Source: Chryseobacterium gleum
Lineage (GTDB): Bacteria; Bacteroidota; Bacteroidia; NS11-12g; UBA955
Direction of reading: 5' to 3'
Length of the DNA: 35,352 nt
Assembly (NCBI GenBank): GCA_945870885.1
Contig: CAMBTR010000005.1
Location: 1-35,352 of the forward strand
Shown here: positions 3,370 through 29,788 of the stretch, in pieces
How the letters are laid out: each line of letters begins with the position of its first letter
Numbering within the stretch: position 1 is the first letter of the stretch
Translations under genes and position numbers: made by a program
Notes under the pieces: generated by a model
Databases searched by the model: none
Seen by the model: only the letters and a program-made list of their open reading frames with translations
What the model was told of the DNA's origin: nothing

Positions 3370-3378
3370 CGATTGGTA

Positions 3379-9300: not shown

Positions 9301-10455
9301 GGTAGCGTACAAATTGTTTGCTGCGTTGTCCGATGCTGGATCTGATGAACCTCCCAATCCGGGTCTAAATGGCTTTGCTTCACCTAAATCTTGAAATGCC
9401 AGGATATCACGCGGTGTTTCAACGTTGGCGTTTTTGTTGGTGACCCATGCTTCTACACGGTTGATAATCACCCCGCTGGCAATAATGGGTAGGTTTTCTA
9501 AAGATTTGTTATAGTTTTCTCTGAAAAATTGAGATAGGAAATAGTGCTTGTTTTGGTCGTAATTGTCTGCGGTGATTTTGAATTCATTCATCTGCGCACC
9601 GCCTTTAAGCACCGTCTCTGTGCTCTGCCCCTTATTTTGACTAAAGACTGTTTTGATGGTAGTTTTTCCGAATTGCATCGTATTGGAAAATCCAAACAAA
9701 TTGTTTGCAGGCTTAATTAACTGGGTTGGTAGGTTTAGATTGACATTTCCCACTTGGATGTCTTTTAGGATTCCATCGGGCTTGCCTTTCCATCCCAAAT
9801 TGGTTTGATTGTCGAATTCAAAAGCCGCTTCTGTATCGTAATTTATGCCCAACTTCACAAATTCACCTACACTCCCGTTGGCGCTGATTTGCATCTGCTG
9901 GTCAAATACGGGAACAAAATATTTTTGCTGACGTTTAGAGAAATTGGGATTCCTGTTCACGTTCATGCTCCCGCCCAATTTTACCATGGCGGACCCGTTC
10001 AACTGAAAATCAACACCCCCTTCTCCAAAAATCTTAGAAACTGTTGGGTTATTTAGTTCGGCTTTGATTAAATCCGTTACGCTTTTATTGTTGCCGCCCA
10101 ATGAGTAAGCGCTCTGCGTCTTTCCGCGGAAGTACTTCTCATTTTCGATTTTCGATTGTTTTTGGAAGTACTCAGCAACCGATAGGCTTTCGCCGGTAGC
10201 GTAACTGAGCGATCCTAAATTGCGGAAACCTTCGTATCGATTGGCTCTGGCGTTGTATCGCCATTCGGTTTTAACGGGATTTTCAAGATCCACATGGGAG
10301 CCCGTAGTGCCATTTTTCTGTAACCGATACCGCAGACTGTTTGTGTCTAATTGGCCGAAAAGGGGATTGCTAATTACCGCCAATAAAATCAACAGCATCG
10401 CACCGAATGTTGCACGCAAAATACGTGCGGTTATGGATTGACCATTAAATCTCAT
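3379..10455 (-). CDS. sprA: Type IX secretion system outer-membrane translocon SprA (Sov)
   Basis: SprA is the giant outer-membrane beta-barrel through which T9SS cargo leaves the periplasm; in Flavobacterium it also supports gliding. The 2358-aa length fits the family (about 2400-2500 aa). An N-terminal signal peptide ends near residue 35 (…AVISNPLFGQ). The rest is dominated by beta-strand segments typical of a very large barrel, and the chain ends in a barrel-like strand 'LTDFGLEARYTFN'. Family wording such as 'NLEDFESAELTNDV' and 'DYEVDYALGRVRI' is visible. It is the longest gene in the window, with no internal frameshift. It follows ruvA after a 70-nt gap and is followed 9 nt later by porZ. 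The nearest upstream sequence shows no good TAnnTTTG box, so it may be transcribed from gldA/ruvA or from a promoter I cannot see. The ruvA-sprA neighbourhood, as I recall, recurs in other Bacteroidota. Confidence 0.96.
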   Translation of the reverse strand: MRFNGQSITARILRATFGAMLLILLAVISNPLFGQLDTNSLRYRLQKNGTTGSHVDLENPVKTEWRYNARANRYEGFRNLGSLSYATGESLSVAEYFQKQSKIENEKYFRGKTQSAYSLGGNNKSVTDLIKAELNNPTVSKIFGEGGVDFQLNGSAMVKLGGSMNVNRNPNFSKRQQKYFVPVFDQQMQISANGSVGEFVKLGINYDTEAAFEFDNQTNLGWKGKPDGILKDIQVGNVNLNLPTQLIKPANNLFGFSNTMQFGKTTIKTVFSQNKGQSTETVLKGGAQMNEFKITADNYDQNKHYFLSQFFRENYNKSLENLPIIASGVIINRVEAWVTNKNANVETPRDILAFQDLGEAKPFRPGLGGSSDPASDNAANNLYATITADPNTRFTGQAIDKIYATLPYFEQTIDFDILNYARQLTDKEFSLNQQLGYISLNQPLNNDEILAVAFEYTYEGKTYQVGEFSRDIPPGNQKLMFLKMLKGNTIRTKLPMWRLMMKNIYALNTYSLSLEDFKLNVIYADDTTGGDYNYLPIGNANCPSLANGNPLIRVFGLDKLNRQQEAKPDGIFDAIEGLTVNTQFARIIFPVTDPFGDYLREQFNGRNDLGEYYCYDALYDSTKWLAQQDVKHNKFFLQGSYKSSNGAELFLGTTNLQRGSVRVTANGRPLTEGMDYEVDYALGRVRITNQGLLQGGAEIRASANGQSFFNIQQKTLVGGRVEHKFNKKLLVGGTLLHMYERPLTTKTNFNEEPLLNTIVGADMAFSSKSRFITKVIDQLPFLETKEVSNITAYAEIAKIYPHNHKSQGDQRGVSNLEDFESAELTNDVKTVSNWSIGAVPQKQEDKFPDTKNADRLNWMNHHAALSFYTIDNLFYRDVDMPDNIKKRVDAILSDPFQRQVDQRELFPQRNFPQGTPTILPTLDLFFRPKMRGLYNFNSNPNEVNANGELLNPELSWAGVTRKIDQNDFEAANIDYIEIWMLDPMANNPNLKGEFLLQLGNVSEDILPDRRKSFENGLPSSSSASNATDTTNYAFIPEGPQINFAFDNNNGTLKAQDVGLDGMDDGNEKLHFDTVFLKRIATNFGTSSQYYQNAYQDPSNDNYRHYLDGFFDGVDADIIGRYTRIQGPQGNSNNEQYTGQYAGMPKSTTPVPSDEDVNRDFTLNQSEDYFQYRIKINAADMQMGRNYIADIVKNNVKLRNGKSRDITWYQLKIPIREFEKAVGNISDFKSIRFMRMVMTGFNDSAILRLGYINIVKADWRRYTNSLKTPGVIVPQDPNDGTKFVVSTVNIEENSKRLPVAYVSPPGIVRVQNMASLGTVLENEQSLSLKVCELKAGDSRAAFKTTTFDARNYKRMQMFVHAEESLNNPVADGEVSAFIRFGTDLTSNYYEYEIPLKLTRGYINMNSANADKSIWPDENFIDIPFDSLYNLKIVRQNAAWPMTAPFIRFMGKGKITVMGLPDVSNLRVMMVGLKNNSTSPKCFEAWFNELRVKEIANKGGWASLANIQMQLADFGQLNLSGTVRTIGFGDVDKKLNDRSLSTNLNYDIASNLELGKFFPKKSGISIPMYIGYSESFVRPKYFPLNPDLEMQSYLSGLADAATRATVKKAAEEYNSLYSLNFNNVRVASAMGKAPKPWSPSNFVLGYSYQNNSRRNQQIEEYFLKTTQATIGYSYSKGTKYIKPFRKMKSKKLNLIKDFNFNFIPSSFSTQIQANRLYSETQSRNNNKFIQVNPRLFDKNFTILRNFNTNIPLTENLKLNYTANVSSRIQEPYGRLDNEIKLDSVKKEFLSLGRTTKFYQNINANYTVPFSKMKWTRWISSTVTYTGSYEWNQAPPAFASLGNRIQNGQDINFAGQMNFTQLYQQIPWLRDLEKPKQLKTAVKKEGDEAPVFENALQKGAPTTKKANPAKVFVGNLISMLKNASFSYQLKENTEMPGFAYKPDYFGNNFNHMQPGLKFVLGMQDSKLRYKLADLGALKKDPRQSNFYRNNKNQNLSGNITVEPIKNFRIRLDFSRSMTVGTQVVFKYDGFEWMDQGLTQTGNFNVTGWFFNTHFVKDVTIGTDNHTNPVFDQFLNNRYTTASKLSSQRLGFNGTDTVTKFPIGYSKNSQDVLVGAFNASYAGKDPGYSDVSGFPSIPLPNWNVNYNGLTKIKFLGNIFSNINLKHAYTGRYSIGNYTQNLKYKSDEVAMLGKDLTPKYQIADATITEGFYPLVGVNLTTKNNWTVGAEYKRSRTLKLFAASFNLTEMRSNEFQLNAGYRTTGLTLPFKKNGRWLYIPNDFRFDLTVSVTDNVTVIRKVDLNINKYTAGMKNIRISPSITYQVNQKINLALKYNRVVMDPKVANQFYTALTDFGLEARYTFN

Positions 10456-11129: not shown

Positions 11130-12902
11130 TTATCTGATTTGGTATTTTCGTTTGCGATAGATATTGTTAGCCATGCCAAAAATCATCATACTTAATAAAG
11201 GCGCGATGATGTTGAACCACTGCCAATAGGTGTGCTCAAGTCGAGTTTTTTCGCTATCTAACAATCTCAATGTCTTTTCTTTGGCTCTGATTTCAATCAA
11301 ACCATTATCGTCTATTAAATAATCGATGCAATTCAATATGAACTTCTTATTCGCAAAGGTTGTCTTCGTAAATCGATCGTAACCCGTTGGGTAAATTCCG
11401 CCTCTGCCACTCACCCCATTTCGTATGATATCGCCATCGGCAATTACCACCATTTTACTTTCACCGTTGGGTAAGAAAGCAGATCCTGTATAGTGTTTTT
11501 GGTAGATAAAAGGCGATTGGAATTTGCCTTCCATCAATACGCCCGTTAGCTTGCTGCCACCCCTCAAAGTATTCCTGAATCGGTCGTCCCTGGATTGCAT
11601 GTAAGCGTTTTCTAGGTCGACGTTTGCTGGGGCCTGAATTGTTTTTGTATAGGGGCTGCTGCTCAATAAAGGTGTTACATTAAGGTCCGTTTTTGATTTG
11701 GCAGTAAGTGTTGCTGGGAATTGACCCCAAACCGGACCTACGTTTTTGTTGATGATGTGGGGTGAACTAACCGACATAAACACGGGGAAATAATAGAAAT
11801 CGATCATTTCCGGACGGTTGCCCACGGGAATCGGAATTTGATTGCAATTGGCGTCCATTAACAGGGTGGATTCCATTTTTACGCCGTAATTAAACAACGA
11901 TGCATTGATGTTTTCCAACTGATTGTCCATGGCGGCGATAGAGCTGTTGGTTTCGAAACTGTCGATTTCCACATGCACCGGATCAATCATCCAAATCACC
12001 TTGCCTCCCTTTAATAGGAATTGGTCAATCAAATACAATTCAGAAGGAGAGTAGTCTTTTATCGGTTTAATGATGAGCAATAAATCGTTGTTGTTTAATC
12101 GCTGCTGTAGACTATTAATCAGAACACTGCCCATTTCTTCTGGGTTGCTCAGTGATTTTAGCTTGTCGATAAATGGCTCCGCAGATTTTGGGTCGGCCAC
12201 GTTAATATTCAACGCAGAAACATCGTAATATTTACCCAATTCTGCAGCGAAATCTCCTACGCGATTGTCGATCATCTCTCCCGAACCATCCGCAACGGCA
12301 ATCTTCTTGGGTTTGTCTAATGTGCACTGCCTTAACCCATTGGCGATTTCATACTCCACGTTATCAATCGCTCTTTTGATGTTGTTGTCGGCGTCCAAAG
12401 CCACATCGTGCTCATAGAAATTAATCGCAACAGTTTTTCCGGCATACATCATTTCCGCACCCGGAATAATATTCTTTATGGTAGTGCTGTTGCCTCCCTC
12501 ACCTTCAATATCGCGCTGATGAATCACCCCGCGCTGATTAAAATCGTCCAGAATGCCGCTGACTTCGGATAGTTGCTTTCCTTCGAAAGGGTCGATGACT
12601 TCGATTTCGATTTTTCTGCCGCTGAGTTCGCGAAATTCATAGGCCACATCGCGGATTTCATTGCGAAGGTTTTTGAATCGGGCCGACATATCGCCGTCTA
12701 GATATAGGCGGAAGTAGCACTTTTCTTTCAGTTCTTTGCTGAGTTTTTTGCTTGTTTCGCTTAGGGTGTAACGTTTTTCCTCTGTTAAATCGATCCGCAA
12801 ATAATAGAAATTGCCCAGGATGTTTACGACGATGATAATTACCAACAGCGTGGTAAATTCCAAGATGGATTGAATGCGTGCTCCGTACTTTTTCATCACC
12901 AT
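11130..12902 (-). CDS. gldG: Gliding motility-associated ABC transporter auxiliary protein GldG
   Basis: GldG is the membrane-anchored extracytoplasmic partner of the GldA-GldF ABC transporter linked to gliding motility in Flavobacterium; its transported substrate is unknown. The 590-aa chain has one N-terminal membrane segment ('LEFTTLLVIIIVVNILGNFYY'-like, residues about 14-34) followed by the family hallmark 'RIDLTEEKRYTLSETSKKL'. A long extracytoplasmic domain follows, and a second membrane helix lies near the C-terminus ('WFNIIAPLLSMMIFGMANN') before a basic tail. It overlaps gldF: ATG codons exist at 12902 and at 12896, the latter in a TGATG stop/start overlap with gldF. Either start leaves the protein essentially unchanged. 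Confidence 0.93.
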   Translation of the reverse strand: MVMKKYGARIQSILEFTTLLVIIIVVNILGNFYYLRIDLTEEKRYTLSETSKKLSKELKEKCYFRLYLDGDMSARFKNLRNEIRDVAYEFRELSGRKIEIEVIDPFEGKQLSEVSGILDDFNQRGVIHQRDIEGEGGNSTTIKNIIPGAEMMYAGKTVAINFYEHDVALDADNNIKRAIDNVEYEIANGLRQCTLDKPKKIAVADGSGEMIDNRVGDFAAELGKYYDVSALNINVADPKSAEPFIDKLKSLSNPEEMGSVLINSLQQRLNNNDLLLIIKPIKDYSPSELYLIDQFLLKGGKVIWMIDPVHVEIDSFETNSSIAAMDNQLENINASLFNYGVKMESTLLMDANCNQIPIPVGNRPEMIDFYYFPVFMSVSSPHIINKNVGPVWGQFPATLTAKSKTDLNVTPLLSSSPYTKTIQAPANVDLENAYMQSRDDRFRNTLRGGSKLTGVLMEGKFQSPFIYQKHYTGSAFLPNGESKMVVIADGDIIRNGVSGRGGIYPTGYDRFTKTTFANKKFILNCIDYLIDDNGLIEIRAKEKTLRLLDSEKTRLEHTYWQWFNIIAPLLSMMIFGMANNIYRKRKYQIR

Positions 12903-13624
12903 TTTCTGCTTTCAAATGCCATTTTCGTTGCCCCTAAGAAGGTTGCGATGAATCCAAAGAAGTAAATTACATCGCGGGTGTCTAGTACGCCACGACTAAT
13001 GGATTGATAGTGAAAATCAAGACTGAACCACTCTAAGCTTTTGCCGATGGCGTCCAGGGCTTTGATGTCTCCCAATAGACTCAATACGCCATACCAGAAA
13101 AAACACAATACCATTGAAATTATTAACGAAACAATTTGATTGTCGGTCAGTGAACTAGCAAACAACCCAATGCTCGCATAGCTAGCGGCCAAAAGTATCA
13201 AACCAAAATAGGAACCCCATGTAGCTCCGGCATCAGTGCCTTGTAAGGGATCGGCAAGTTGTTGAATCGTATAGTAATAAAATAGGGTGGGTAAAAGTGT
13301 GAAGACGATCAATGCCACCGCTGCCAAATATTTTCCCATCAAAATGGATAAATCACTCACGGGACGGGTGGTCAAAATTTCTATCGTACCCAATCGACGT
13401 TCTTCGCTGAGGCTTCGCATCGTAATGGCAGAAACCAAAAAGATTAAAATATAGGGAGCGATGTTGAACATCACTTGCAGGCTAGCCACGCCCAAATCAA
13501 GGACGTTATTCCCTTTGATGATCCACATGAACAATCCAGTGATTGCCAAGAAAACGCCCATTACTATATAGGCAATGAACGAGCCCAAGAAACTGCGAAT
13601 TTCCTTTTTAAATACTTCCCACAT
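12896..13624 (-). CDS. gldF: Gliding motility-associated ABC transporter permease GldF
   Basis: GldF is the membrane-spanning subunit of the GldAFG ABC transporter. The 242-aa protein begins MWEVFKKEIRSFLGSFIAYI and has about six hydrophobic segments. Between the second and third helices lies the characteristic cytoplasmic stretch 'MRSLSEERRLGTIEILTTRP', shared with ABC-2 type permeases. It ends with a charged tail (TKMAFESRKW). Its start overlaps the end of gldA by 17 nt and its stop overlaps the gldG start region, so the three are almost certainly translationally coupled. Size and segments match the family, and nothing appears missing. Confidence 0.94.
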   Translation of the reverse strand: MWEVFKKEIRSFLGSFIAYIVMGVFLAITGLFMWIIKGNNVLDLGVASLQVMFNIAPYILIFLVSAITMRSLSEERRLGTIEILTTRPVSDLSILMGKYLAAVALIVFTLLPTLFYYYTIQQLADPLQGTDAGATWGSYFGLILLAASYASIGLFASSLTDNQIVSLIISMVLCFFWYGVLSLLGDIKALDAIGKSLEWFSLDFHYQSISRGVLDTRDVIYFFGFIATFLGATKMAFESRKW

Positions 13625-14330
13625 GGCTTGTCAAATTTCTAAAAATGGTCTCTAAACTGTCCGATGGCGCTGTCTCTTTTAAGCCTTCCAACGTATTGTC
13701 GGCAATGATCTTGCCCTTATTTATTAATATCACTCGGTTACACATGGCTTCTACCTCTTGCATGATGTGGGTACTCAAAAGAACTGTTTTTTCGCTGCCC
13801 AAATTTTTAATAACGTTTCTAATCTCAACCACCTGGTTTGGATCGAGTCCAGAGGTGGGTTCATCCAAAATCAACACTTTTGGGTCGTGGATAAGCGCTT
13901 GGGCTAATCCAACGCGTTGACGGTAACCTTTAGATAACTGTCCGATTTTCTTATTCCTTTCTGGTCCGAGGTGTGTTAACTCGATGACCATTTCTAGCGC
14001 CTTCTTGGTGTTTTTAACTCCAGCAATTCCCGCTGCAAATAACAAGTATTCTGAAATGTACATATCCAGATACAAAGGATTGTGCTCGGGAAGGTAGCCA
14101 ACCAGTTTCCTCACTTCTAAACTTTGTTCTGCCAAATCCAATCCGCAAACCGAAGCATCGCCGCTGCTTGCAGGTATATATCCGGTGAGGATTTTCATTG
14201 TGGTAGATTTTCCGGCGCCGTTGGGACCTAGAAATCCAACCACCTCTCCCGATGGAATGGAAAATGAAATACTGTCTAACGCCAATTGATGGCCGTATTT
14301 CTTGGATAAATTGTTAACTTGAATGCTCAC
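13608..14330 (-). CDS. gldA: Gliding motility-associated ABC transporter ATP-binding protein GldA
   Basis: This is the ATPase subunit of the GldAFG transporter. The 240-aa sequence has Walker A 'GPNGAGKST' (about residues 35-43), a Q-loop region, the ABC signature 'LSKGYRQRVGLAQAL', Walker B 'VLILDEPTSGLDP' and the switch histidine 'LLSTHIMQEVE'. On sequence alone it could be any ABC-2 type ATPase. The call as GldA rests on direct adjacency and overlap with gldF and gldG and on family-like wording. A perfect TAnnTTTG box lies 8 nt upstream of its ATG, so it is the likely first gene of the gldA-gldF-gldG-ruvA(-sprA-porZ-M20) transcript. Confidence 0.92.
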   Translation of the reverse strand: MSIQVNNLSKKYGHQLALDSISFSIPSGEVVGFLGPNGAGKSTTMKILTGYIPASSGDASVCGLDLAEQSLEVRKLVGYLPEHNPLYLDMYISEYLLFAAGIAGVKNTKKALEMVIELTHLGPERNKKIGQLSKGYRQRVGLAQALIHDPKVLILDEPTSGLDPNQVVEIRNVIKNLGSEKTVLLSTHIMQEVEAMCNRVILINKGKIIADNTLEGLKETAPSDSLETIFRNLTSHVGSI

Positions 14331-15259: not shown

Positions 15260-16157
15260 GTAAGATTTGAGATTTTAACGCTTCGATTGAATCGAACTTC
15301 TGCTCATTTCTCAAATACTGTACCAAAAACAGGGTGAGGTGCTCGCCGTAGATGTTTTTATCAAAATCAAACAAGTGCGCTTCGATGCTAATATTTTCGC
15401 CATCCACCGTGGGCCTTACGCCGATGTTGCAAACCATTTTGAAACGCTTGTTTTCTACCAAACAAATGCCGGCATAAACGCCAAACGAAGGGATGAGTTT
15501 GTAGGGGTCGTTGATGTGGATATTCGCAGTGGGAAATCCTATCGTTCTGCCCAATTGCTTGCCATGAATCACCGTACCAGTGAGTTGGTATGACCTGCCA
15601 ATGAGTTGATTTGCCTCATATAATCCACTATTTGATAGTGCCTTGCGAATTCTGGTGCTGCTAACGGCAATTTCGTCTATTGTAGAAGCCGGAATTTCCT
15701 GTACGGCGAAGTTGAACTGTTTGCTTAGTTGAACAAGAGTGTTGAAATCGCCACTTCTGTTGATCCCAAAGTGGTGGTCGTATCCGATTACGATGGTATG
15801 GACGTTGAGTTGTTTTACCAATATATCCGCCACAAAGGCTTCGGGCGAAAGTTGAGAAAATTCTTGGGTGAATGGAAGGACCAAAACGTAGTCTATGCCC
15901 AAGGCAAAAACGGCTTCGGCTTTTTCTTCGATGCTCGAGAGCATTCGTAGTTCACGGTTGTTGGGTTCTACGACCAGTCTAGGGTGGGGGTGGTAGGTGA
16001 TTAATAAGCTTTGGGTGTTTTGTTCCTTGGCTAGGTCAACCACGTGATTTAATACTTTTTGATGACCCAAATGAACGCCATCGAAAGTACCTTGGGTAAT
16101 GACTAAGGGTGAACTCTTAGGGACTTCGGAGGGATTGCGATACAGTGACGTGGTCAT
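15219..16157 (-). CDS. ribF: Bifunctional riboflavin kinase / FAD synthetase
   Basis: RibF phosphorylates riboflavin to FMN and adenylylates FMN to FAD in the cytoplasm. The 312-aa sequence has the N-terminal nucleotidyltransferase motif 'GTFDGVHLGHQKVL' (about residues 23-36) and 'TYHPHPR'. The mid-protein 'SSTRIRKAL' corresponds to the (S/T)xxR-type motif. The C-terminal riboflavin kinase domain has 'LGRTIGFPTANI' and 'GVRPTV'. Length and order match the standard bacterial enzyme. It is divergent from porQ across 65 nt, and its 3' end overlaps the M23 gene. A near-consensus GAAATTTG box lies 8 nt before its ATG. No RFN riboswitch-like leader is possible in the short space available. Confidence 0.96.
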   Translation of the reverse strand: MTTSLYRNPSEVPKSSPLVITQGTFDGVHLGHQKVLNHVVDLAKEQNTQSLLITYHPHPRLVVEPNNRELRMLSSIEEKAEAVFALGIDYVLVLPFTQEFSQLSPEAFVADILVKQLNVHTIVIGYDHHFGINRSGDFNTLVQLSKQFNFAVQEIPASTIDEIAVSSTRIRKALSNSGLYEANQLIGRSYQLTGTVIHGKQLGRTIGFPTANIHINDPYKLIPSFGVYAGICLVENKRFKMVCNIGVRPTVDGENISIEAHLFDFDKNIYGEHLTLFLVQYLRNEQKFDSIEALKSQILLDAEQAQTLVTLD

Positions 16158-16165
16158 GGAAAGTA

Positions 16166-16173
16166 CAAATTTC
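16166..16173 (-). promoter_or_regulatory. Candidate -7 element (GAAATTTG) for ribF
   Basis: This minus-strand box matches TAnnTTTG at all but the first consensus base and sits 8 nt before the ribF start, the same distance seen at other starts in this window. No clear -33 TTG partner was found, so it is weakly supported. Confidence 0.3.
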
Positions 16174-16208
16174 GGTAAAATATCCGCTGAGAGTTCTCGT
16201 TCTTAAAC

Positions 16209-16216
16209 TAAATTTG
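16209..16216 (+). promoter_or_regulatory. Candidate -7 element (TAAATTTG) for porQ
   Basis: TAAATTTG is a perfect TAnnTTTG match that ends 6 nt before the porQ ATG at 16223, so transcription would begin at or just before the start codon. No good -33 TTG is visible at normal spacing. Confidence 0.45.
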
Positions 16217-16222
16217 TTGCTG

Positions 16223-17332
16223 ATGCCCAAACGCTTACTGATTTTATTGTGTGTTCTGGCCTCGGCCAAGGCCTCGGCCCAAGCCGGATCGCAAGGCGTT
16301 TTTCGGATATTGGACATTCCAATGCACAGCAAATCATTGGCTTGGTGCGGTTATTTGATATCTCAACCCTCATCAGATATCCTTCAAACGACCAACAATC
16401 CAGCGTTACTCTCAGATGAACATCGTTTCAAAGCAGGACTTAGCGCTGGTACCATTCTTCCAGGCGTTTTTTCTGCCAATGCGGCGTTTGGAATCGGAAA
16501 TATTTCGGTATCGGGCAAAAAAATATCGCTACAGGGTTTTGCGCAGCACATCGACTATGGCAGCATGGATGGTTACGATGCGGGTGGAAATCCAACGATG
16601 AAATTGGTAGCAAACGAAACAAATATTGGAATGGGCGGATCCATGGCACTATCACCTCAACTAAGATTTGGTGCCCAGTTGGGAATGGTTTATAGCATTC
16701 TAGGACCCTTTATTTCCAGTGGCGTGTATGTCAATTTGGGGTTCAATCACATCAAAAAAGATTCAACTTTATCGGCTGGATTGCTTATTAAAAATCTGGG
16801 CGCACAAGTGATGAGTTATCAAGATGCAGGCAGAGAACCTTTGCCTTTTAATATCCAAGCGGCCGTGGCAATTATGCCCAAACACATGCCTTTTAAATTT
16901 CATCTGGTGGCGCATAGTTTGCAAAAATGGGATTTGACCTACGATCAGTATCTAAATAGCAACGGTCAGATAGATATCAATGGTCAGGCGGTGTTGCCAA
17001 CCGAAGCGAAGTTTGCGGATAAATTGGGTCGACATTTAGCGGTGGGTACGGAATTGGCGTTGGGTAAGAATTTTGGCATTTATGTTGGGTATAGTCAGCA
17101 AAGAAGAAAAGATATGATTACCGATGTAAGGCGGGGTACGGCGGGATTTGGCTGGGGTTTGAAATTCAAAATGGCCAAGTTGGATATTACGTATTCTAGT
17201 GCCAGTTATTTCAGCAGTCAGAATTCGAATATGTTCTCCATCATTATCGATCCCAATCGGTTTTCCAAGAAAAAATCTGTTGCCTTTGTTCAGTTAAATC
17301 ATACGCCTTGTCGCGGAATCCCTGAGTTGTAA
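16223..17332 (+). CDS. porQ: Type IX secretion system protein PorQ
   Basis: PorQ is an outer-membrane barrel of the FadL/PorV type that belongs to the T9SS attachment complex and, in Porphyromonas, anchors PorZ. The chosen start gives 369 aa beginning with the signal peptide MPKRLLILLCVLASAKASAQ. Next comes the family-typical opening 'GVFRILDIPMHSKSLAWCG' and the 'NNPALLS' motif found near the N-terminus of PorV/PorQ proteins. The remainder is glycine- and aromatic-rich beta-strand. The ORF track starts 26 codons earlier, inside the ribF 5' region; I rejected that because it buries the signal peptide and passes over the promoter-like box. The gene stops 6 nt before cmk. The porQ-cmk pairing, as I recall, also occurs in Porphyromonas, which supports the call. 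Confidence 0.9.
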   Translation: MPKRLLILLCVLASAKASAQAGSQGVFRILDIPMHSKSLAWCGYLISQPSSDILQTTNNPALLSDEHRFKAGLSAGTILPGVFSANAAFGIGNISVSGKKISLQGFAQHIDYGSMDGYDAGGNPTMKLVANETNIGMGGSMALSPQLRFGAQLGMVYSILGPFISSGVYVNLGFNHIKKDSTLSAGLLIKNLGAQVMSYQDAGREPLPFNIQAAVAIMPKHMPFKFHLVAHSLQKWDLTYDQYLNSNGQIDINGQAVLPTEAKFADKLGRHLAVGTELALGKNFGIYVGYSQQRRKDMITDVRRGTAGFGWGLKFKMAKLDITYSSASYFSSQNSNMFSIIIDPNRFSKKKSVAFVQLNHTPCRGIPEL

Positions 17333-18068: not shown

Positions 18069-18833
18069 ATGAATCGTCAGAAAATTGTCGCGGGTAACTG
18101 GAAAATGCATAAAACCTTGGAAGAGAGCCAAGCGTTGATTACCGAAGTAAGAGGAATTGTTAGAGATGAATATCGCGGAGAAGGTAAAGTAGTTTTAATC
18201 CCAACATTTTTGGCTTTGCCATCTGCCGTTCGATTGCTAGAAGGCAGTGGATTGTTGGTTGGGTCACAAAATGCACATCAAGAAGATCAAGGGGCATTTA
18301 CGGGTGAAATTTCAGCAGGTATGCTTAAGTCGTTGGGTATTCAATATTGTTTGGTAGGGCATTCGGAACGACGTCAATTCTTTGGGGAAACCAATGAAGT
18401 ATGTGCGTTGAAAGTAAAATCGGTGATTCGCCATGGCATGAAGCCCATTTTTTGTATCGGCGAAACGTTGGAACAGCGCGAAAGCAAGCAATATTTTAGG
18501 GCTATCGAAGAGCAAATCGTTCAAGGATTGTTTCATTTGGATCGCAAGGAATTTGCCGAAGTTGTTATTGCATATGAGCCAGTTTGGGCTATCGGTACCG
18601 GTTTGAATGCATCGCCGGAGCAAGCGCAAGAAATCCATGCTTATATCAGAAAACTATTGGCCAACCAATACAATGAAGAAATTGCTGCAACTACCTCTAT
18701 CCTTTACGGTGGAAGCGTGAAGCCAGAAAATGCTGCGGCGTTGTTTATGCAGGCCGATATCGATGGTGGATTGATAGGTGGTGCTAGCTTAAAAGCCCGC
18801 GATTTTATTGATATCGTGAAAGCGATGCGATAA
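18069..18833 (+). CDS. tpiA: Triosephosphate isomerase
   Basis: TpiA interconverts dihydroxyacetone phosphate and glyceraldehyde 3-phosphate in glycolysis and gluconeogenesis. The 254-aa TIM barrel shows all key residues: 'AGNWKMH' with the active-site Lys12, 'VGHSERR' with His98, and 'AYEPVWAIGTG' with the catalytic Glu170 and loop 6. The phosphate-binding 'YGGSVKPENA' and 'GLIGGASL' follow. The ATG at 18069 is the only sensible start (MNRQKIVAGNWK). It follows cmk by 40 nt; the gap contains TTTGATTTAGATTTTG, a near match to a promoter box with one extra base. It could be read from porQ-cmk or from its own weak promoter. Confidence 0.98.
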   Translation: MNRQKIVAGNWKMHKTLEESQALITEVRGIVRDEYRGEGKVVLIPTFLALPSAVRLLEGSGLLVGSQNAHQEDQGAFTGEISAGMLKSLGIQYCLVGHSERRQFFGETNEVCALKVKSVIRHGMKPIFCIGETLEQRESKQYFRAIEEQIVQGLFHLDRKEFAEVVIAYEPVWAIGTGLNASPEQAQEIHAYIRKLLANQYNEEIAATTSILYGGSVKPENAAALFMQADIDGGLIGGASLKARDFIDIVKAMR

Positions 18834-18906: not shown

Positions 18907-21900
18907 ATGATAAAAAAACTCTGCTTTATCCTACTTTCTGTTTTTGCGCTGAAATTGACAGCCCAAAGTGGAAGTTTTAGCCCAGTGCCTGCTACCTTTA
19001 TTGCTGAGTTTGAGACATTTGTCAACCGCCCTGGAGATAAGAACCTCACCAAGAATTTCAATATTTTTAAGCAGAATTGGGAAATGGGTAAATTTTCGCC
19101 CAGTCAGCAGAAATTTATCATCGATATTTCAAATCAAATGCTGGCCGAAAAAATGGCCGTTCAACCGCATTTCGAATTATACATCGCAACGGTAGCGGCA
19201 TTTTTGCAAAATAACTTGCCCGATAAAGTACTCGTTCAATGGCAAGGCATCACCAAGTCTTTGCTGGGAAATTCCAACAAAGAGTACCTCGAATTTCTTC
19301 AAACTACCGCCAATTTGTTCGCCGATAAAGTCATTTATAAATCGGGTACGGCAGTTTGGAGCGTGGATACGCTGGATTTTGACTTATACTACAATAATGA
19401 AATCGAAATACGCTTTGGTGAAGTTGCCCTAATCTGCACTGGGTTTATGGACAAAATGGTAATTAGCGCTACCAAAGGAGTGTATAAGCCGTTGAAGAAT
19501 GTTTGGGTTGGTGATTACGGCACCGCGGATTTCAAACGATGCCTACCCACCGAATCGGCTTGGGTGAAGTTTGGGAAATATCGCTTGAACATGGATCAAA
19601 ATATCTATTCGGTGGACTCAGCTCAGTTGGTCTACGGTAGGTATTTTAAAACACCGGTTTTGGGTAAGTTTACCGATAAATTGAGTACTGCCACGGATTC
19701 TTTAAAAGTAAAGAAATCGGGATTTCCGCAGTTCAATTCCTATGATAACGAATTGTTGGTGAGTGGAATAGTGGGTGATGAATCTTTCTTTAGAGGGGGA
19801 TTTTCGATGCAAGGTCATTCCATTACAACGGCCACTGCCAACGGCAAACCATCGGTGATCGACGTGTTCTATAAAGGCAAAAAGAAGGTCACCTTAAAAA
19901 GTAAATCGTTCAAAATCCAAGACGGGATTGCAGGGACTTTGCAGAGTGAATTCACGATGTATTTGGACAGCGTCACCACAATCTACCATCCCTTTGTGAA
20001 GGTGAATTTTATCTTCAAGGACAATAAATTAATTATCGATAGGGGTGAGGAAGGATTGATGCGCGTGCCGTTTCAAGACAATTTTCACAATGTAAATATT
20101 GATGTTCAGCAGGTTCGTTGGATTGTTACGGAGCCTTTTGTGGATTTTGATAACGTGAATAACGAGTTGGAAGCAAGAATTTCATCGGACGATTTTTTTC
20201 GTGACATTCTATACAATCGATTGCAAGGTCCTTTGAGGTCGCATCCGTTGGAAGGTTTGGTAGCCTACTATAACCGACAGCCAGAAGATCCCATTGCCAA
20301 GCAAATGGAGAAGGATATCAAAAACTTGATGTTGTCTAAGGATCCAGCCGATAAAGCAAAATTGGATGCCAAGCTCAAGCAGTTGCAAGCGCAGAAAGCC
20401 AAAACGCGTGAGTTTTACAAGGCAGATCAGCGCATCAAATTTTCATTGGATGACTATGCATTTTTTCAGCAAACCCAGAAAGAATATTTGGTAGTTCCGT
20501 TTCTTGAATTGCATGATCAAGGTTACATCAATTATTTACAAGATCAAGACAGTGTTACCTTGTTGCCAAAAGCGTTTCGATATGTGCAAGCGCATCAGAA
20601 ATTAAGGGATTACGATGTGATTCGAATTTCTTCCATCATTGGAAAGCGATCCAATTTTACGTTGAATCTGCTGAGTAATGAAATGAATTTGGAGGGTGTT
20701 TCTAAGTTCTTCTTTTCCGATTCTCAAAACGTAATTGTGGTGCCAACGGAGCAGCAAGTGACATTGACCAAGAATCGTGGTTTGCGTTTTGGTGGACAGT
20801 TGAGGGCGGGGAGATTCGATTTTTACGGTAAAAAGTACGTTTTCAATTACGGTCAGTTCAACATAGCGATGTCGGCCGTGGATTCCCTAAGAATGTACTT
20901 TCCAGATTCTTCTGGACGTAGATTGGTGCCCATCAAATCGGTGTTGCGGAATGTGAGTGGTACGTTATACATCGACAAACCCAACAACAAATCGGGGAAT
21001 AAGGATTATCCAGAGTATCCGATTTTTGTTTCAGACAAAGGAAGTGAGGTGCTTTACGATAAGCCACACATTCATGGCGGGGCCTACGAAGGCGATAAAT
21101 TTAAGTTTGTGGTGGATCCGTTCACAATCGATAGTTTGGATAATTTCACAATAGCGGGTTTGCGGTTTGAGGGTAATTTTATTTCCGATGGAATTTTTCC
21201 TGAGTTTAGGCATTATGTGACCATTCAGAAGGATTACTCTTTGGGTTTTATAAAACACACGCCTCCCGGTGGTTATTCGATGTATCGCGGCAAGGGATTG
21301 GGTGATATGACCATGAATTTGAGTGAAGAGGGTTTTTATGGAACTGATGGTACGATTGGGTATCAGGGTTCAAAAAGTGAGTTTTCAAAGATTTTGTTAT
21401 TGCCCAAAAAGGCTGTGGGTGTGTTGAATCGATATGATTTGACCGAGAATACCAAGTTTCCAGAAACCCATGCAGTGATGGCTAACATGGAGTGGAATCC
21501 TTATCAGGATGAATACAAAGTGACCAATGGGGCAACGCCAATCAAAGTGTTTAAGGTGGGTCATGATTTCACGGGTACAATGACACAATCGCCAAGTGTG
21601 ATGAAGGGCAATGGTACTTTGGCTTGGGAACAGGCGAGATTTACTAGTGCTGAACAAATCTTTGGTCCCAAAAAGACATCTGCCAAGCAAGCCAGTTTGC
21701 AGATTTACGCGGCGGATTCTTCTCGGATGGCTTTTGAGACTAGCAATATCAATGGAACGATGGACTTTAATACGCGCATCGGGACATTTACCAAGAACGA
21801 GGCGGGTTCTATGACCAAGTTTGATTACAATATGTATCAGACCAATCTCACGGATTACAAGTGGGATATGGACAAGAAGATTATTCAGGCTAAGGTAGGT

Positions 21901-23418
21901 CCTTCGTTGGCCGGTCAAACGCCCATTTTTGCCAGTACGAATCCAACCCAAGGGGGCTTGAGTTTTGAAGCCAAAAAAGCCGATTACAGTTTGGTGGATT
22001 ATACGCTTAAGATCAGTGAAATACCGTTTATCGATATCGCTGATTCACGACTTTTCCTGAAAGATGGAAAGGCTACCGTGAGGGCAAATGCGAATATGGA
22101 TCAGTTGGATAGCACGCGATTGGTGGCTGGAAGGGATAATAAATTCCACGAGATTTATAAGTTGCGGGTGAAGGTGTATGGTAAGAATAAGATACGTGGA
22201 AACGGGTATTATCAGTATGTCAATAGTAGGGGTGTAAGGCAAGAGTTTTTCTTGGATAGTGTGATCGTGAACGACAATCAGCGTGTAGAAGGGGTGGGTA
22301 AGATCGCGGAGGAAAGCAACTTTACTTTGGAGACCAAAATCGGATATAAGGGTTTCGCTCAGATAGAAAGCACGGAAAAATTGATTCGCTTTACAGGTTA
22401 TGTGAAACCTTTGCATACGTTTAAAAACATTTATCCTTCGGCTTGGATTCGGTTCGATAACCGTGTGGATCCCAAAGACGTTGTGTTGGATATGAGTGAT
22501 CCGCGCGACAAAGACAATAAGAAGCAATACGTGGGTTTATTTGTTGCCAACGATTCAAGTCACGTCTATCCGTTGATGTATTCTTGGAAGCGCAGGTATT
22601 CCGACGATGATGTTACCAACGATACAGGTATTTTCTACTACGACCACAAGACGGAGAGTTTCTATGCCGGCAGTAAGTCGAGGTTGCGCGATGGTGGATT
22701 GAAAGGCAGTTGGATTCAGTTTAACGAGAAAGATCACACCATTCACGCGGAAGGACCTTTAGATTTTGGATTGGAGACGCCCAATATTCATTTCAAGAAT
22801 GCGGGTACGGCGGATTTATATCGCGGGGATAGCTCGTTTGTTTTCAACATGGCGATGATGTTGGATTTTCCGATGCCTCAGGATTATGTGACGGCGTTGG
22901 TGGCTTTGATCAATGAGAACGGTGGGACAACTTCCTCGGTGAATACGGACTTCTTTAAGCGGTGTTTGGGCGAGATGATGGAAAATGAGAAGAGTGCACG
23001 TCAGGCCTTGGCCAATTTGGAAAAGAACGGCGAACTAACAGGCAAAGACGAGGCGAATTATGCCTTTGTTTTGAGCGATGCAACCTTCCGTTGGGACAGT
23101 AAAATGCGGGGTATGTATTGCGACGATATCGTTTCGGTGGCCAGCATCGCAGGGAAGCCTATCAACAAGAGTTTAAGGGCGACGATGTTGCTGGAGCACA
23201 AGCGAAGTGGACAGAATATGTATATGTATTTGGAGCTTGGGGCGAAGGATTATATCTATATCAATTTGACGAAAACGGTGGCAAATATTTATTGCTCGGA
23301 TGAGAAGATGCAGGGTGTGTTGGCTGCTACGATGAGCAAGATTAAGGCCGAAGGCTTCTATATCAGACCCGCTACTGAACGTCAGGCTGAGAAGTTTATT
23401 CGTCGATTTGAGGAGTAA
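18907..23418 (+). CDS. Large exported protein of unrecognised family, 1503 aa
   Basis: I do not recognise this family with confidence. A clear signal peptide (MIKKLCFILLSVFALKLTAQ) shows export. Residues about 21-140 look helical. From about 145 on, alternating hydrophobic/polar strands dominate, with segments of similar style such as 'EVALICTGFMDKMVISATKG', 'GGQLRAGRFDFYGKKYVF' and 'MKGNGTLAWEQARFTSAEQI'. A charged helical stretch near 459-510 interrupts them. The C-terminal 170 residues turn mixed alpha/beta and end 'FYIRPATERQAEKFIRRFEE'. There is no T9SS sorting domain, no TonB box, and no C-terminal aromatic barrel strand. Strand style loosely recalls OstA/LptA-like or AsmA/TamB-like beta-solenoids of the periplasm, but that is only an impression. 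It follows tpiA by 73 nt and ends facing truA. An intact long reading frame with a signal peptide makes it a real gene. Confidence 0.9.
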   Translation: MIKKLCFILLSVFALKLTAQSGSFSPVPATFIAEFETFVNRPGDKNLTKNFNIFKQNWEMGKFSPSQQKFIIDISNQMLAEKMAVQPHFELYIATVAAFLQNNLPDKVLVQWQGITKSLLGNSNKEYLEFLQTTANLFADKVIYKSGTAVWSVDTLDFDLYYNNEIEIRFGEVALICTGFMDKMVISATKGVYKPLKNVWVGDYGTADFKRCLPTESAWVKFGKYRLNMDQNIYSVDSAQLVYGRYFKTPVLGKFTDKLSTATDSLKVKKSGFPQFNSYDNELLVSGIVGDESFFRGGFSMQGHSITTATANGKPSVIDVFYKGKKKVTLKSKSFKIQDGIAGTLQSEFTMYLDSVTTIYHPFVKVNFIFKDNKLIIDRGEEGLMRVPFQDNFHNVNIDVQQVRWIVTEPFVDFDNVNNELEARISSDDFFRDILYNRLQGPLRSHPLEGLVAYYNRQPEDPIAKQMEKDIKNLMLSKDPADKAKLDAKLKQLQAQKAKTREFYKADQRIKFSLDDYAFFQQTQKEYLVVPFLELHDQGYINYLQDQDSVTLLPKAFRYVQAHQKLRDYDVIRISSIIGKRSNFTLNLLSNEMNLEGVSKFFFSDSQNVIVVPTEQQVTLTKNRGLRFGGQLRAGRFDFYGKKYVFNYGQFNIAMSAVDSLRMYFPDSSGRRLVPIKSVLRNVSGTLYIDKPNNKSGNKDYPEYPIFVSDKGSEVLYDKPHIHGGAYEGDKFKFVVDPFTIDSLDNFTIAGLRFEGNFISDGIFPEFRHYVTIQKDYSLGFIKHTPPGGYSMYRGKGLGDMTMNLSEEGFYGTDGTIGYQGSKSEFSKILLLPKKAVGVLNRYDLTENTKFPETHAVMANMEWNPYQDEYKVTNGATPIKVFKVGHDFTGTMTQSPSVMKGNGTLAWEQARFTSAEQIFGPKKTSAKQASLQIYAADSSRMAFETSNINGTMDFNTRIGTFTKNEAGSMTKFDYNMYQTNLTDYKWDMDKKIIQAKVGPSLAGQTPIFASTNPTQGGLSFEAKKADYSLVDYTLKISEIPFIDIADSRLFLKDGKATVRANANMDQLDSTRLVAGRDNKFHEIYKLRVKVYGKNKIRGNGYYQYVNSRGVRQEFFLDSVIVNDNQRVEGVGKIAEESNFTLETKIGYKGFAQIESTEKLIRFTGYVKPLHTFKNIYPSAWIRFDNRVDPKDVVLDMSDPRDKDNKKQYVGLFVANDSSHVYPLMYSWKRRYSDDDVTNDTGIFYYDHKTESFYAGSKSRLRDGGLKGSWIQFNEKDHTIHAEGPLDFGLETPNIHFKNAGTADLYRGDSSFVFNMAMMLDFPMPQDYVTALVALINENGGTTSSVNTDFFKRCLGEMMENEKSARQALANLEKNGELTGKDEANYAFVLSDATFRWDSKMRGMYCDDIVSVASIAGKPINKSLRATMLLEHKRSGQNMYMYLELGAKDYIYINLTKTVANIYCSDEKMQGVLAATMSKIKAEGFYIRPATERQAEKFIRRFEE

Positions 23419-25464: not shown

Positions 25465-27768
25465 ATGCAGCAAAGGCGTTCTACAGGGGGGGTGAAATTC
25501 TTAAACCAAACGATGGCCTTGCTTTTGTTGCTGCTGATCCCAGGCATAGTTTACGGCCAAGAAAATAGTTCGCCAAGGGAGGACAGTACAAAAGTAAATA
25601 GGGCCGACACAACAGACGTTGAATCGTTTGATGAAGTGTTGGTTTCATCGCAGCGTTTTGCGCAAAAAAGGAAGGATTCGCCACGACAAATTGAAGTGGT
25701 TAGTGCCAAGCGCTTGGCAGAATTGCAACCCGCTACTTTGGGTGACGCGTTGATCAATACAGGTCAGGTGTTTGTTCAAAAGAGTCAAATGGGTGGTAGT
25801 TCTCCTGTGTTAAGGGGTTTTGAAGCCTCTAGGGTACTCATGGTGATAGATGGCGTTCGTATGAATAATGCAACGTATCGTGCTGGTCACTTGCAAGACA
25901 TCATCACCATTGATCCATTTATTTTGGATCGGATAGAAGTGAATTTTGGTGCGGGTTCTACATTGTACGGCTCTGATGCTTTGGGCGGTGTACTTTACTT
26001 CAAAACGAAAGATGCTACCCTTGGAAAATTTGAGGTAAAACCCAATGCCGCGGTTCGATACTTGTCGGCGAGCAACTCTGTGATTGGAAACGCGGGGTTG
26101 AAGATTCAAAGTGAGAAAGTAGGACTGTTATTGTCGGCCACACGCAGTCAATTTGGCGATTTGCGCAGTGGGAGTAAAAATTACTCGGATTGGGATACTT
26201 TTGGATTGTTGTCTAAATATGTGACCCAAATCAATGGTCGCGATACGGTTTTGGTAAACGATGATCCCCAATTGCAGAAAGGGACTGGCTACTCTCAAAC
26301 GGACTTATTCGCCAAGGTATTTGCCAAAACAGGTAAAATCGAACATACTGTGAATTTTCAAAAGTCGATGTCTGATTTGATTCCTCGCTACGATCGTATG
26401 TCGCAGTTTGATAATGGCAAGCCCGTTTATGGTCGTTGGGATTACACGCCGCAGAATCGCAATTATCTATCGTACATCGCAAAAACGGGAAGTGTGGATC
26501 ACCATATTCGTTTGACGTTGGCTCAGCAGAGTACGGAAGTGGCGCGTGTGACCCGCAATTTTGGAAGTAAAACGGAGCGAACGCAGAAGGATGATGTAAC
26601 GATGAGAACGGTGAATTTGGATCGACATGATCAATTGAGCGAGTTGTTTACATTGAATTCGGGCATTGAGATGGTTTGGAATGATGTGACATCGGTGGGA
26701 ATCAATAAAAATATTTCCACGTTGGCGGAAACTGCAACAAAAGCGCGTTACAGCGATTCGGGTGCAACCACTCAGATGCATTCGGTTTTTGCGCAGGGAA
26801 TTTATCGCATCGCATCAACAGGGACAGTGATTCAGGGAGGATTGCGGGTTTCTAAGTATTCATTGGAGGCTTTGTATTCCAAGGCGAATCCATGGAAATT
26901 GCCCTACAGTTCGATTTCTTTTGCTTCAACCACGCCAAGTTTTGATTTGGGGCTTACGCAGCAGCTCAAGAAGGGATTATTGTTGAAGGCGAGTGTGAAT
27001 CAAGCATATCGCAATCCGAATGTGGACGATATGACCAAGGTGTTTGATAGCAAGCCCGGCGTAAAGTTGTTGGTGCCAAGTCCTGATTTGAAGGCCGAGC
27101 AGAGCACAACGCTGGATTTGGGGGTGTTATGGAGGAAGGATAGGTCATTTGCGTTTGAGGCGGGTGTTTTCAGTAGCGCGGTGAAGAATTTGTTATTGGA
27201 CCAGCTAGGTACGTTAGATGGTGCGGATTCTTTGATGTATGATGGTCGTTTGACGCCGGTTTATCAGATAAAGAACGTGGCGGTTGGGAATATATCTGGG
27301 ATGTATTTGAATGCGAAGTTTAGGTTGATGCGCGAATTGTGGTTTACGGGTTCGGTGACACAGACAAAGGGCGTTTATCTGTTGGATGGTGCGGCTGCGG
27401 AGCAGCCGCTGGATCACATTCCTCCAGTTTACGGTCAGGCCGCATTGCGCTGGAATGGCCAGGGTTGGTTTGTTGAAGGACAGTGTTTGTTTAATGGCAA
27501 AAAGAAGGCGGAGGATTATTCGAGCAGTGGGGAGGATAACCAGGACAAGCAGCCAGTAGGTTTGGCAGATATCAATGGCGATGGCAAGGCCGATGGATTC
27601 AATCCTGCATGGCAGTGTTGGAATTTGCGAGGGGGTTATCAGCATAAGTCGGGTTTAACAGCAAATATTGCGATTGAAAATTTATTGGATTTGCATTACC
27701 GATATTTTGCCAGTGGGATGAGTGCTGGGGGAAGAAGTGTAAATGTGAGTGTAGCGTATCAGTTTTAA
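25465..27768 (+). CDS. TonB-dependent outer-membrane receptor, haem/haemoglobin-receptor type
   Basis: This is a ligand-gated outer-membrane barrel energised by TonB-ExbB-ExbD. The 767-aa product has a signal peptide (core ALLLLLLIPGIVYG, cut near residue 31) and a TonB-box-like 'DEVLVSSQR' (about 56-64). A plug domain follows (about 60-182) with 'SSPVLRGFEASRVLMVIDGV' and 'YGSDALGGVLYF'. The barrel carries the receptor motif 'YRNPNVDDMTKVF' and ends '…VNVSVAYQF' with the terminal Phe of outer-membrane barrels. Plug wording resembles HmuR/TonB-haemoglobin receptors, but the ligand is an inference. Near residue 702 there is a DINGDGKADG loop like a calcium-binding motif. The start is ambiguous: ATG 25465 gives a long basic n-region, while GTG 25492 (after a G-run) gives MKFLNQTMALLLL, a more typical signal peptide. 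A strong terminator follows the gene. Confidence 0.92.
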   Translation: MQQRRSTGGVKFLNQTMALLLLLLIPGIVYGQENSSPREDSTKVNRADTTDVESFDEVLVSSQRFAQKRKDSPRQIEVVSAKRLAELQPATLGDALINTGQVFVQKSQMGGSSPVLRGFEASRVLMVIDGVRMNNATYRAGHLQDIITIDPFILDRIEVNFGAGSTLYGSDALGGVLYFKTKDATLGKFEVKPNAAVRYLSASNSVIGNAGLKIQSEKVGLLLSATRSQFGDLRSGSKNYSDWDTFGLLSKYVTQINGRDTVLVNDDPQLQKGTGYSQTDLFAKVFAKTGKIEHTVNFQKSMSDLIPRYDRMSQFDNGKPVYGRWDYTPQNRNYLSYIAKTGSVDHHIRLTLAQQSTEVARVTRNFGSKTERTQKDDVTMRTVNLDRHDQLSELFTLNSGIEMVWNDVTSVGINKNISTLAETATKARYSDSGATTQMHSVFAQGIYRIASTGTVIQGGLRVSKYSLEALYSKANPWKLPYSSISFASTTPSFDLGLTQQLKKGLLLKASVNQAYRNPNVDDMTKVFDSKPGVKLLVPSPDLKAEQSTTLDLGVLWRKDRSFAFEAGVFSSAVKNLLLDQLGTLDGADSLMYDGRLTPVYQIKNVAVGNISGMYLNAKFRLMRELWFTGSVTQTKGVYLLDGAAAEQPLDHIPPVYGQAALRWNGQGWFVEGQCLFNGKKKAEDYSSSGEDNQDKQPVGLADINGDGKADGFNPAWQCWNLRGGYQHKSGLTANIAIENLLDLHYRYFASGMSAGGRSVNVSVAYQF

Positions 27769-28645: not shown

Positions 28646-29788
28646 TTACTTGGGGCAAGTTTGGCACTGAATCACCTTTGCATCAAATACAGCTTTGATG
28701 GGAATGTTGCGTTCTGGTGAAACGGGGTCGTTACAAACAATCCAAATGTTGTAATTCGCATTACCCTTCTTTAATACGGTATCAAAGAAAACGCGGATTG
28801 GCATTTCCTCGCCGGGGGCTAAGGTCTTTTTATCAAACTTCAAAGTGATACAACCGCAGTCCTGCGTGATGTCGTGGATTTTCAATTCTGTCTTCCCCGT
28901 ATTTTTGAGATGGATGTCGGTGAATAGTAGGTCGCCCGCCTCTTTTTTGCCCCAGTTAATCTCTTTGACATCGACGTCTAATTTGGGTTGCTTGGCTAAT
29001 TGTTTGGCGTTCATCTTAGGGAAATACTGTCGACGTACATAGTTTACAACAATGCTATTAAAAAGAGCCGCGGGGTTGTCGGTGGTGTAAGGCAGTTCAA
29101 TGGCACCAAAGCCAAAGTGTGTGATTTTTGTTCCATCGATTTTGATTTTAAAGGTTCCAATTTCATTTGGCTCCAGGGCGGTGGGGTAGCTTAGTATTTT
29201 AATAAAAGCAGGAATCTGCGATGGATTGATGGGCTCAAAATTGGCAGTATAGGGCGTTTCGTTGGTGATGCGTATGGTTTGCGAGTCCTGCTGATTGTCT
29301 AATAGCTCTAAAAAAGAAAAACTAGGTGCACTGAACGATATTTTACCCATGTCGGGTATCACGGCAGCGTTTGGGTCGATTCGTGGCTTTAAAACCTCTC
29401 CCTCGATATCTAGGTGAACAAGCGAAGCGGTTACGGCATCGGAATAAACGGTGATTGATTTCTGAAACGACCCGATTCGATTGTTTGTTTCGAATCTCGC
29501 TTCGATGAAGCCTTTTCCTCCTGGAGGGATAGAATCACGGGTCCAATCGGGGGTGGTGCAACCGCAAGAAGTATGGACTTGTTGAATATGTAGCGGAGTG
29601 ACACCTATGTTGGTAAATGGAAACCGGTGGATGGCGTAGTGAATTGATTCTTCAATCTTGCCAAAATCATGTTTTGTATGGTCGAATTGGATCTCCGGAC
29701 CTTTCTTAATTGGAGTTGGATTTTGGGCGCCAATTTGGGTGCAAAAAAGTAGCGTTGGAATGAAAATGCGGAAGAATTTTGTGCTCAT
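28646..29788 (-). CDS. Exported DUF1573-repeat protein
   Basis: DUF1573 proteins are abundant in Bacteroidota, have an Ig-like (HYDIN/ASPM-type) fold and lack an assigned biochemical role. The 380-aa product has a signal peptide ending 'TQIGAQ' (about residue 22). At least two copies of the domain are visible. The first has 'HDFGKIEE' and 'HTSCGCTTPDW' with CGC at 75-77; the second has 'INWGKKEAGD' and 'TQDCGCITLKF' with CGC at 311-313. The C-terminus has a third cysteine pair, CQTCPK. The paired cysteines may form disulfides or bind metal after export, which is inference. The stretch between about 140 and 250 is another strand-rich, cysteine-free unit that may be a degenerate third copy. It is convergent with yebC with no gap. 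Confidence 0.9.
   Translation of the reverse strand: MSTKFFRIFIPTLLFCTQIGAQNPTPIKKGPEIQFDHTKHDFGKIEESIHYAIHRFPFTNIGVTPLHIQQVHTSCGCTTPDWTRDSIPPGGKGFIEARFETNNRIGSFQKSITVYSDAVTASLVHLDIEGEVLKPRIDPNAAVIPDMGKISFSAPSFSFLELLDNQQDSQTIRITNETPYTANFEPINPSQIPAFIKILSYPTALEPNEIGTFKIKIDGTKITHFGFGAIELPYTTDNPAALFNSIVVNYVRRQYFPKMNAKQLAKQPKLDVDVKEINWGKKEAGDLLFTDIHLKNTGKTELKIHDITQDCGCITLKFDKKTLAPGEEMPIRVFFDTVLKKGNANYNIWIVCNDPVSPERNIPIKAVFDAKVIQCQTCPK

Follow-up and report, generated by a model that had tools for sequence, protein, structure and literature searches.

We propose that a 1503-amino-acid exported protein, which we will call X, is a periplasmic rod of the beta-jellyroll or beta-taco kind, of the same structural type as the Lpt, AsmA-like and VPS13 proteins, and that it carries lipid between the two membranes (we put the probability of this reading at about 0.6). 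Neither X nor its most distant relatives have a whole-protein match in Pfam, NCBIfam, or PDB sequence searches, and we found no description of the gene in the literature. The features that we discuss are as follows. Positions are those of the window, which is the whole stretch of 35,352 nucleotides that we analysed, and residues are those of X.

18069-18833, + strand: tpiA, the conserved upstream neighbour (domain match, synteny)
18907-23418, + strand: gene of X, 1503 amino acids (orthologs, purifying selection)
18907-18963, + strand: signal peptide, residues 1-19, signal peptidase I type, with Gln20 as the mature N-terminus (alignment, Q-rule)
18988-19326, + strand: predicted N-terminal six-helix domain, residues about 28-140 (AlphaFold2 model)
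19330-20226, + strand: first long beta region, residues 142-440, 26 predicted strands, LptA/LptC-like fold (model, Foldseek)
20275-20427, + strand: lysine-rich helical insert, residues 457-507, lineage-specific (alignment)
20440-20598, + strand: winged-helix module inside the rod, residues 512-564 (AlphaFold2, profile against PDB, Pfam matches of family members, Foldseek)
20623-22872, + strand: second long beta region, residues 573-1322, 60 predicted strands, LptA-like fold (conservation, model, Foldseek)
21313-21714, + strand: internal repeats, residues about 803-848 and 892-936 (profile-profile comparison)
22879-23415, + strand: predicted C-terminal helices (1325-1385) and a small beta/alpha domain (1387-1503) for which no match is known (model)

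The initial annotation, which was made without database searches, described a complete frame with a clear signal peptide and no type IX secretion (T9SS) sorting domain, and all of this held. The frame starts with ATG and is far longer than expected by chance, and its length is kept from the genus up to the class. Relative to an ortholog with 87% amino acid identity (L011), pN is 0.09 and pS is 0.78, at which synonymous sites are saturated, so X is under strong purifying selection. The cleavage site (LTA followed by Q) fits the Q-rule for signal peptidase I substrates of Bacteroidetes (PMC10653852): Gln20 is invariant across 89/89 diverse relatives, and 87 of them have A, G, or S just before it. 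We did not find a transmembrane segment after the signal peptide (the best 19-residue window past residue 30 has a mean Kyte-Doolittle score of 1.24), and domain searches did not find a T9SS sorting domain.

To describe the architecture, we used two AlphaFold2 models, built from 86 relatives (about 22-90% identity), that cover residues 20-830 and 504-1503. Mean pLDDT was 90.5 and 90.3, respectively, and the secondary structure of the two models agrees at 94% of the positions where they overlap. Between residues 140 and 1322, there are 88 predicted strands (the two beta regions account for 86), whose average length is under 7 residues. Comparing sub-profiles within X gave significant internal repeats (E = 8e-8 for residues 803-848 against 892-936, and another at 2e-7), and one of these includes MKGNGTLAWEQARFTSA, which the initial annotation had quoted when it called the protein strand-rich and repetitive; both descriptions are borne out. 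The amphipathicity of the strands is only slightly above that of shuffled strands (p = 0.04). A charged helical insert had also been reported, and it does exist at about residues 457-507, but it is not a conserved feature: it is missing from most relatives (occupancy 0.28). The C-terminus had been described as conserved-looking, but the most conserved part of the alignment is residues 600-800.

The local fold of X is predicted with high confidence to be LptA-like, and we consider this to be well supported. When we compared the models to PDB with Foldseek, the N-terminal model matched LptH (probability 1.00) and LptC (0.96), and the C-terminal model matched LptA (2r1a; probability 1.00, TM-score normalized by the target of 0.62, rmsd of 3.4 Å over 124 columns). 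These are local matches to the twisted beta-jellyroll fold. TM-scores over the whole length are low, and the likeness to LptA spans about 125 residues at a time; low overall scores are expected for a long rod that is bent or flexible, and we therefore regard the likeness as a local one that recurs along X. ApoB was also among the PDB matches, and in the Foldseek viral library, chorein-domain (VPS13-like) proteins were in the top four for the C-terminal two thirds of X.

The lowest E-value for the C-terminal model was to LptD (3.8e-7), which might suggest a beta-barrel in the outer membrane, like LptD, or a beta-solenoid at the cell surface, such as an adhesin. We think that this is very unlikely, as the match to LptD has a TM-score of about 0.1-0.17 and an rmsd of 46 Å, and the strands are short. 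Furthermore, X has no C-terminal barrel signature, it has helical and winged-helix inserts, and its match to LptA is compact.

By sequence, X does not match Pfam's LptD_N (PF03968), OstA_2 (PF13100), TamB (PF04357), or AsmA domains, and profile-profile comparisons of X to alignments of OstA_2 and of TamB were also negative; the resemblance is therefore one of fold, and kinship with either family is not demonstrated. The initial annotation had guessed at a long repetitive beta-structure in the periplasm of OstA or AsmA/TamB style. The guess about the fold stands, in that Lpt proteins are the best solved matches, but X belongs to neither family by sequence, it lacks the anchor of TamB, and it has extra helices at the N-terminus as well as the winged helix. 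What we add to that guess is the winged helix and the absence of a membrane anchor.

Comparisons to the known systems show how X resembles and departs from each. Like LptA, LptH, and LptC, which form the periplasmic bridge for lipopolysaccharide (LPS), X has a cleavable signal peptide and is expected to be periplasmic, and it shares their jellyroll fold as predicted; unlike them, it is a single chain about ten times longer, with added helical, winged-helix, and C-terminal domains. AsmA-like proteins such as TamB are similar to X in size (about 1500 amino acids), in the long beta rod that is predicted for X, in their wide conservation, and in presumably bridging the inner and outer membranes. 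However, an N-terminal helix that anchors the protein in the inner membrane defines the AsmA-like proteins (PMC8593681), and X has none, as its signal peptide is cleaved; a separate TamB is present in the same genome. VPS13 and other chorein proteins may share with X a long groove-type rod, but those proteins are cytoplasmic and eukaryotic, and X has no chorein domain by sequence. The unit of these repeating-beta-groove proteins is five strands and a loop that together form the groove (PMC7613979); the sign of a repeated structure in X is the internal repeats from profile comparison.

Although no domain had been named in X, and none can be for the protein as a whole, a winged helix at residues 512-564 was overlooked. 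The profile of this region matched almost exclusively winged helices in PDB (the best was TFE, at E = 6.5e-4; others were MarR, PadR, SmtB, and IclR). Single members of the family match Pfam's winged-helix models at 4e-6 to 2e-4 (TFIIE_alpha at 4e-6, HTH_Crp_2 at 5e-5), and distant relatives that were scanned singly had weak matches to winged helices and to nothing else in Pfam. Foldseek matched this part of the model to AspA (TM-score 0.52). By both profile and fold, this is a module of the winged-helix superfamily, with three helices followed by a wing.

X is a single-copy core gene in most lineages of its class. Within the order, 103 of 108 genomes carry it (63 of 64 when restricted to good genomes), and a profile search across the class found it in 207 of 247, again as a single copy. 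Orthologs are usually about 1460-1600 amino acids long, and a few families reach 1857. Outside the class we found none: in a sample of 297 genomes from the phylum, for which the share from outside the class is not shown, the 11 genomes that matched were all of the same class. The initial annotation had suggested modelling the fold and surveying conservation, and an LptA-type fold and a core gene are what these gave. The 40 genomes of the class that lack X include whole families and also scattered members of others. A deeper, class-level profile found nothing in these 40 genomes, and with this result we reject an overlooked divergent X. The absence from several families may be why X has escaped notice, even though it is nearly universal in many lineages of the class and still has no family in Pfam or NCBIfam.

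The neighbourhood that prevails class-wide, judged from 74 loci at the order and class levels, is tpiA - prmA - X - plsY, sometimes with clpS after it. Where they are adjacent, the genes are nearly contiguous: prmA is directly upstream of X in 41 of the 74 loci (median gap of 2 nt), and plsY is directly downstream in 32 (median gap of 5.5 nt). PlsY makes the first intermediate of phospholipid synthesis. In the genome of the window, the next gene upstream is tpiA, as had been noted, which ends 73 nt before X, and plsY is not adjacent.

Genes for T9SS are also in the window: porZ (1132-3369) and sprA (3379-10455), which together span 1132-10455, and porQ (16145-17332). X might thus be taken for a component of type IX secretion or gliding, but 34 of the 40 genomes that lack X retain sprA. 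Besides, having T9SS genes nearby is particular to this order, whereas tpiA, prmA, and plsY are the neighbours of X throughout the class, and X has no sorting domain. We reject this role, which is largely refuted already and is the least probable of those that we considered. Between these T9SS genes, we also see an ABC transporter (13608-14330) and a gliding-related (GldG-like) ABC_transp_aux protein (11130-12902).

Could X be a part or a partner of LPS export, such as an extension of LptA or LptC? Its fold matches are LptA, LptH, LptC, and LptD; the genome of the window has no recognisable OstA_2 (LptA-like) protein; and in two distant lineages, an OstA_2 gene is no more than about 5 kb away from X (at 875-2386 in L058 and 3030-4703 in L069). 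But OstA_2 has HMM matches in 239 of the 247 class genomes, both with and without X. The presence of X is therefore not tied to that of OstA_2 in either direction, and we reject a replacement of LptA by X. There is also no sequence relation by profile-profile comparison, and no conserved adjacency to lpt genes. We consider a role in LPS export to be improbable. A congener (G086) of the window's genome has a marginal match to OstA_2 (E = 8e-4), whereas the matches are clear in other genera of the family.

MlaD (242 of 247), TamB (242), and SprA (240) are, like OstA_2, nearly universal in the class, so X does not replace any of them. The number of TamB matches does vary: at least two were found in 31 of the 40 genomes that lack X and in 57 of the 207 that have it (p = 7e-9, Fisher test, uncorrected for kinship). 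At the level of families, the excess has p = 0.004, and it is seen in large genomes (16/17 versus 22/51 for those of at least 4 Mb) and in smaller ones (15/23 versus 35/156). As a control, the copy number of MlaD did not differ significantly. The extra TamB matches include open frames of about 1650-1760 amino acids. An excess of TamB is expected if another bridge takes over where X is missing.

The main rival to a lipid bridge, however, would predict this excess equally well. In this view, X is a TamB-like rod that handles proteins: it would serve in the periplasm as a scaffold or chaperone for proteins of the outer membrane or for lipoproteins of the surface, and its winged helix and helical domains would bind these clients, or partners from BAM or TAM. 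TamB-type rods have been proposed to serve protein assembly, and in Flavobacterium, TamL and TamB act on outer-membrane proteins, with little effect on lipids (PMC12045153). A winged helix would be a plausible module for docking to proteins, too. On the other hand, the best fold matches of X are the lipid carriers of the Lpt system, and its closest conserved neighbour is plsY rather than bam, tam, or skp. We view the scaffold as unlikely, but as more plausible than the other alternatives.

We therefore return to the lipid bridge, and suggest how it might work. X would be exported by Sec and cut by signal peptidase I, and would not be anchored in the inner membrane. The rod most likely forms a groove that shields lipids and has the length to span from the inner to the outer membrane. 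If the 86 strands form two sheets, or about 43 layers at 0.47 nm each, then the rod would be about 20 nm long, in agreement with what has been reported for bacterial lipid bridges (PMC7613979). It would move lipid between the membranes, and because the gene directly adjoins plsY in many relatives, the most plausible cargo is newly made glycerophospholipid. Partners at the inner and outer membranes may dock to the helical domain at the N-terminus, to the winged helix, and to the domain at the C-terminus. That the groove is continuous, that the cargo is lipid, the direction of its movement, the partners, and the envelope-bridging function itself are what we infer for X. As counterpoints, the strands are barely more amphipathic than shuffled ones, plsY does not adjoin X in the genome of the window, and LptA (OstA_2), TamB, and MlaD accompany X nearly everywhere, so X is not the sole candidate for a carrier.

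More tentatively, and with somewhat less than even odds, X might found a class-wide family of trans-periplasmic bridges that is soluble instead of anchored, has an exported winged helix for docking, is tied to phospholipid synthesis via plsY, and is partly interchangeable with a second TamB. Even for E. coli, the route by which phospholipids arrive at the outer membrane is known only in part, and for Bacteroidota it is known less well still. If X is a lipid bridge, then the Lpt/AsmA/VPS13 group gains a family and a testable target (a soluble rod in a plsY operon), and lineages would have a choice between X and a second TamB.

Downstream of X, the window encodes a TonB-dependent receptor (25465-27768), whose best match in NCBIfam is a heme/hemoglobin subfamily (below the cut-off), and a protein with DUF1573 and HYDIN-like Ig domains (28646-29788), which lies opposite yebC.
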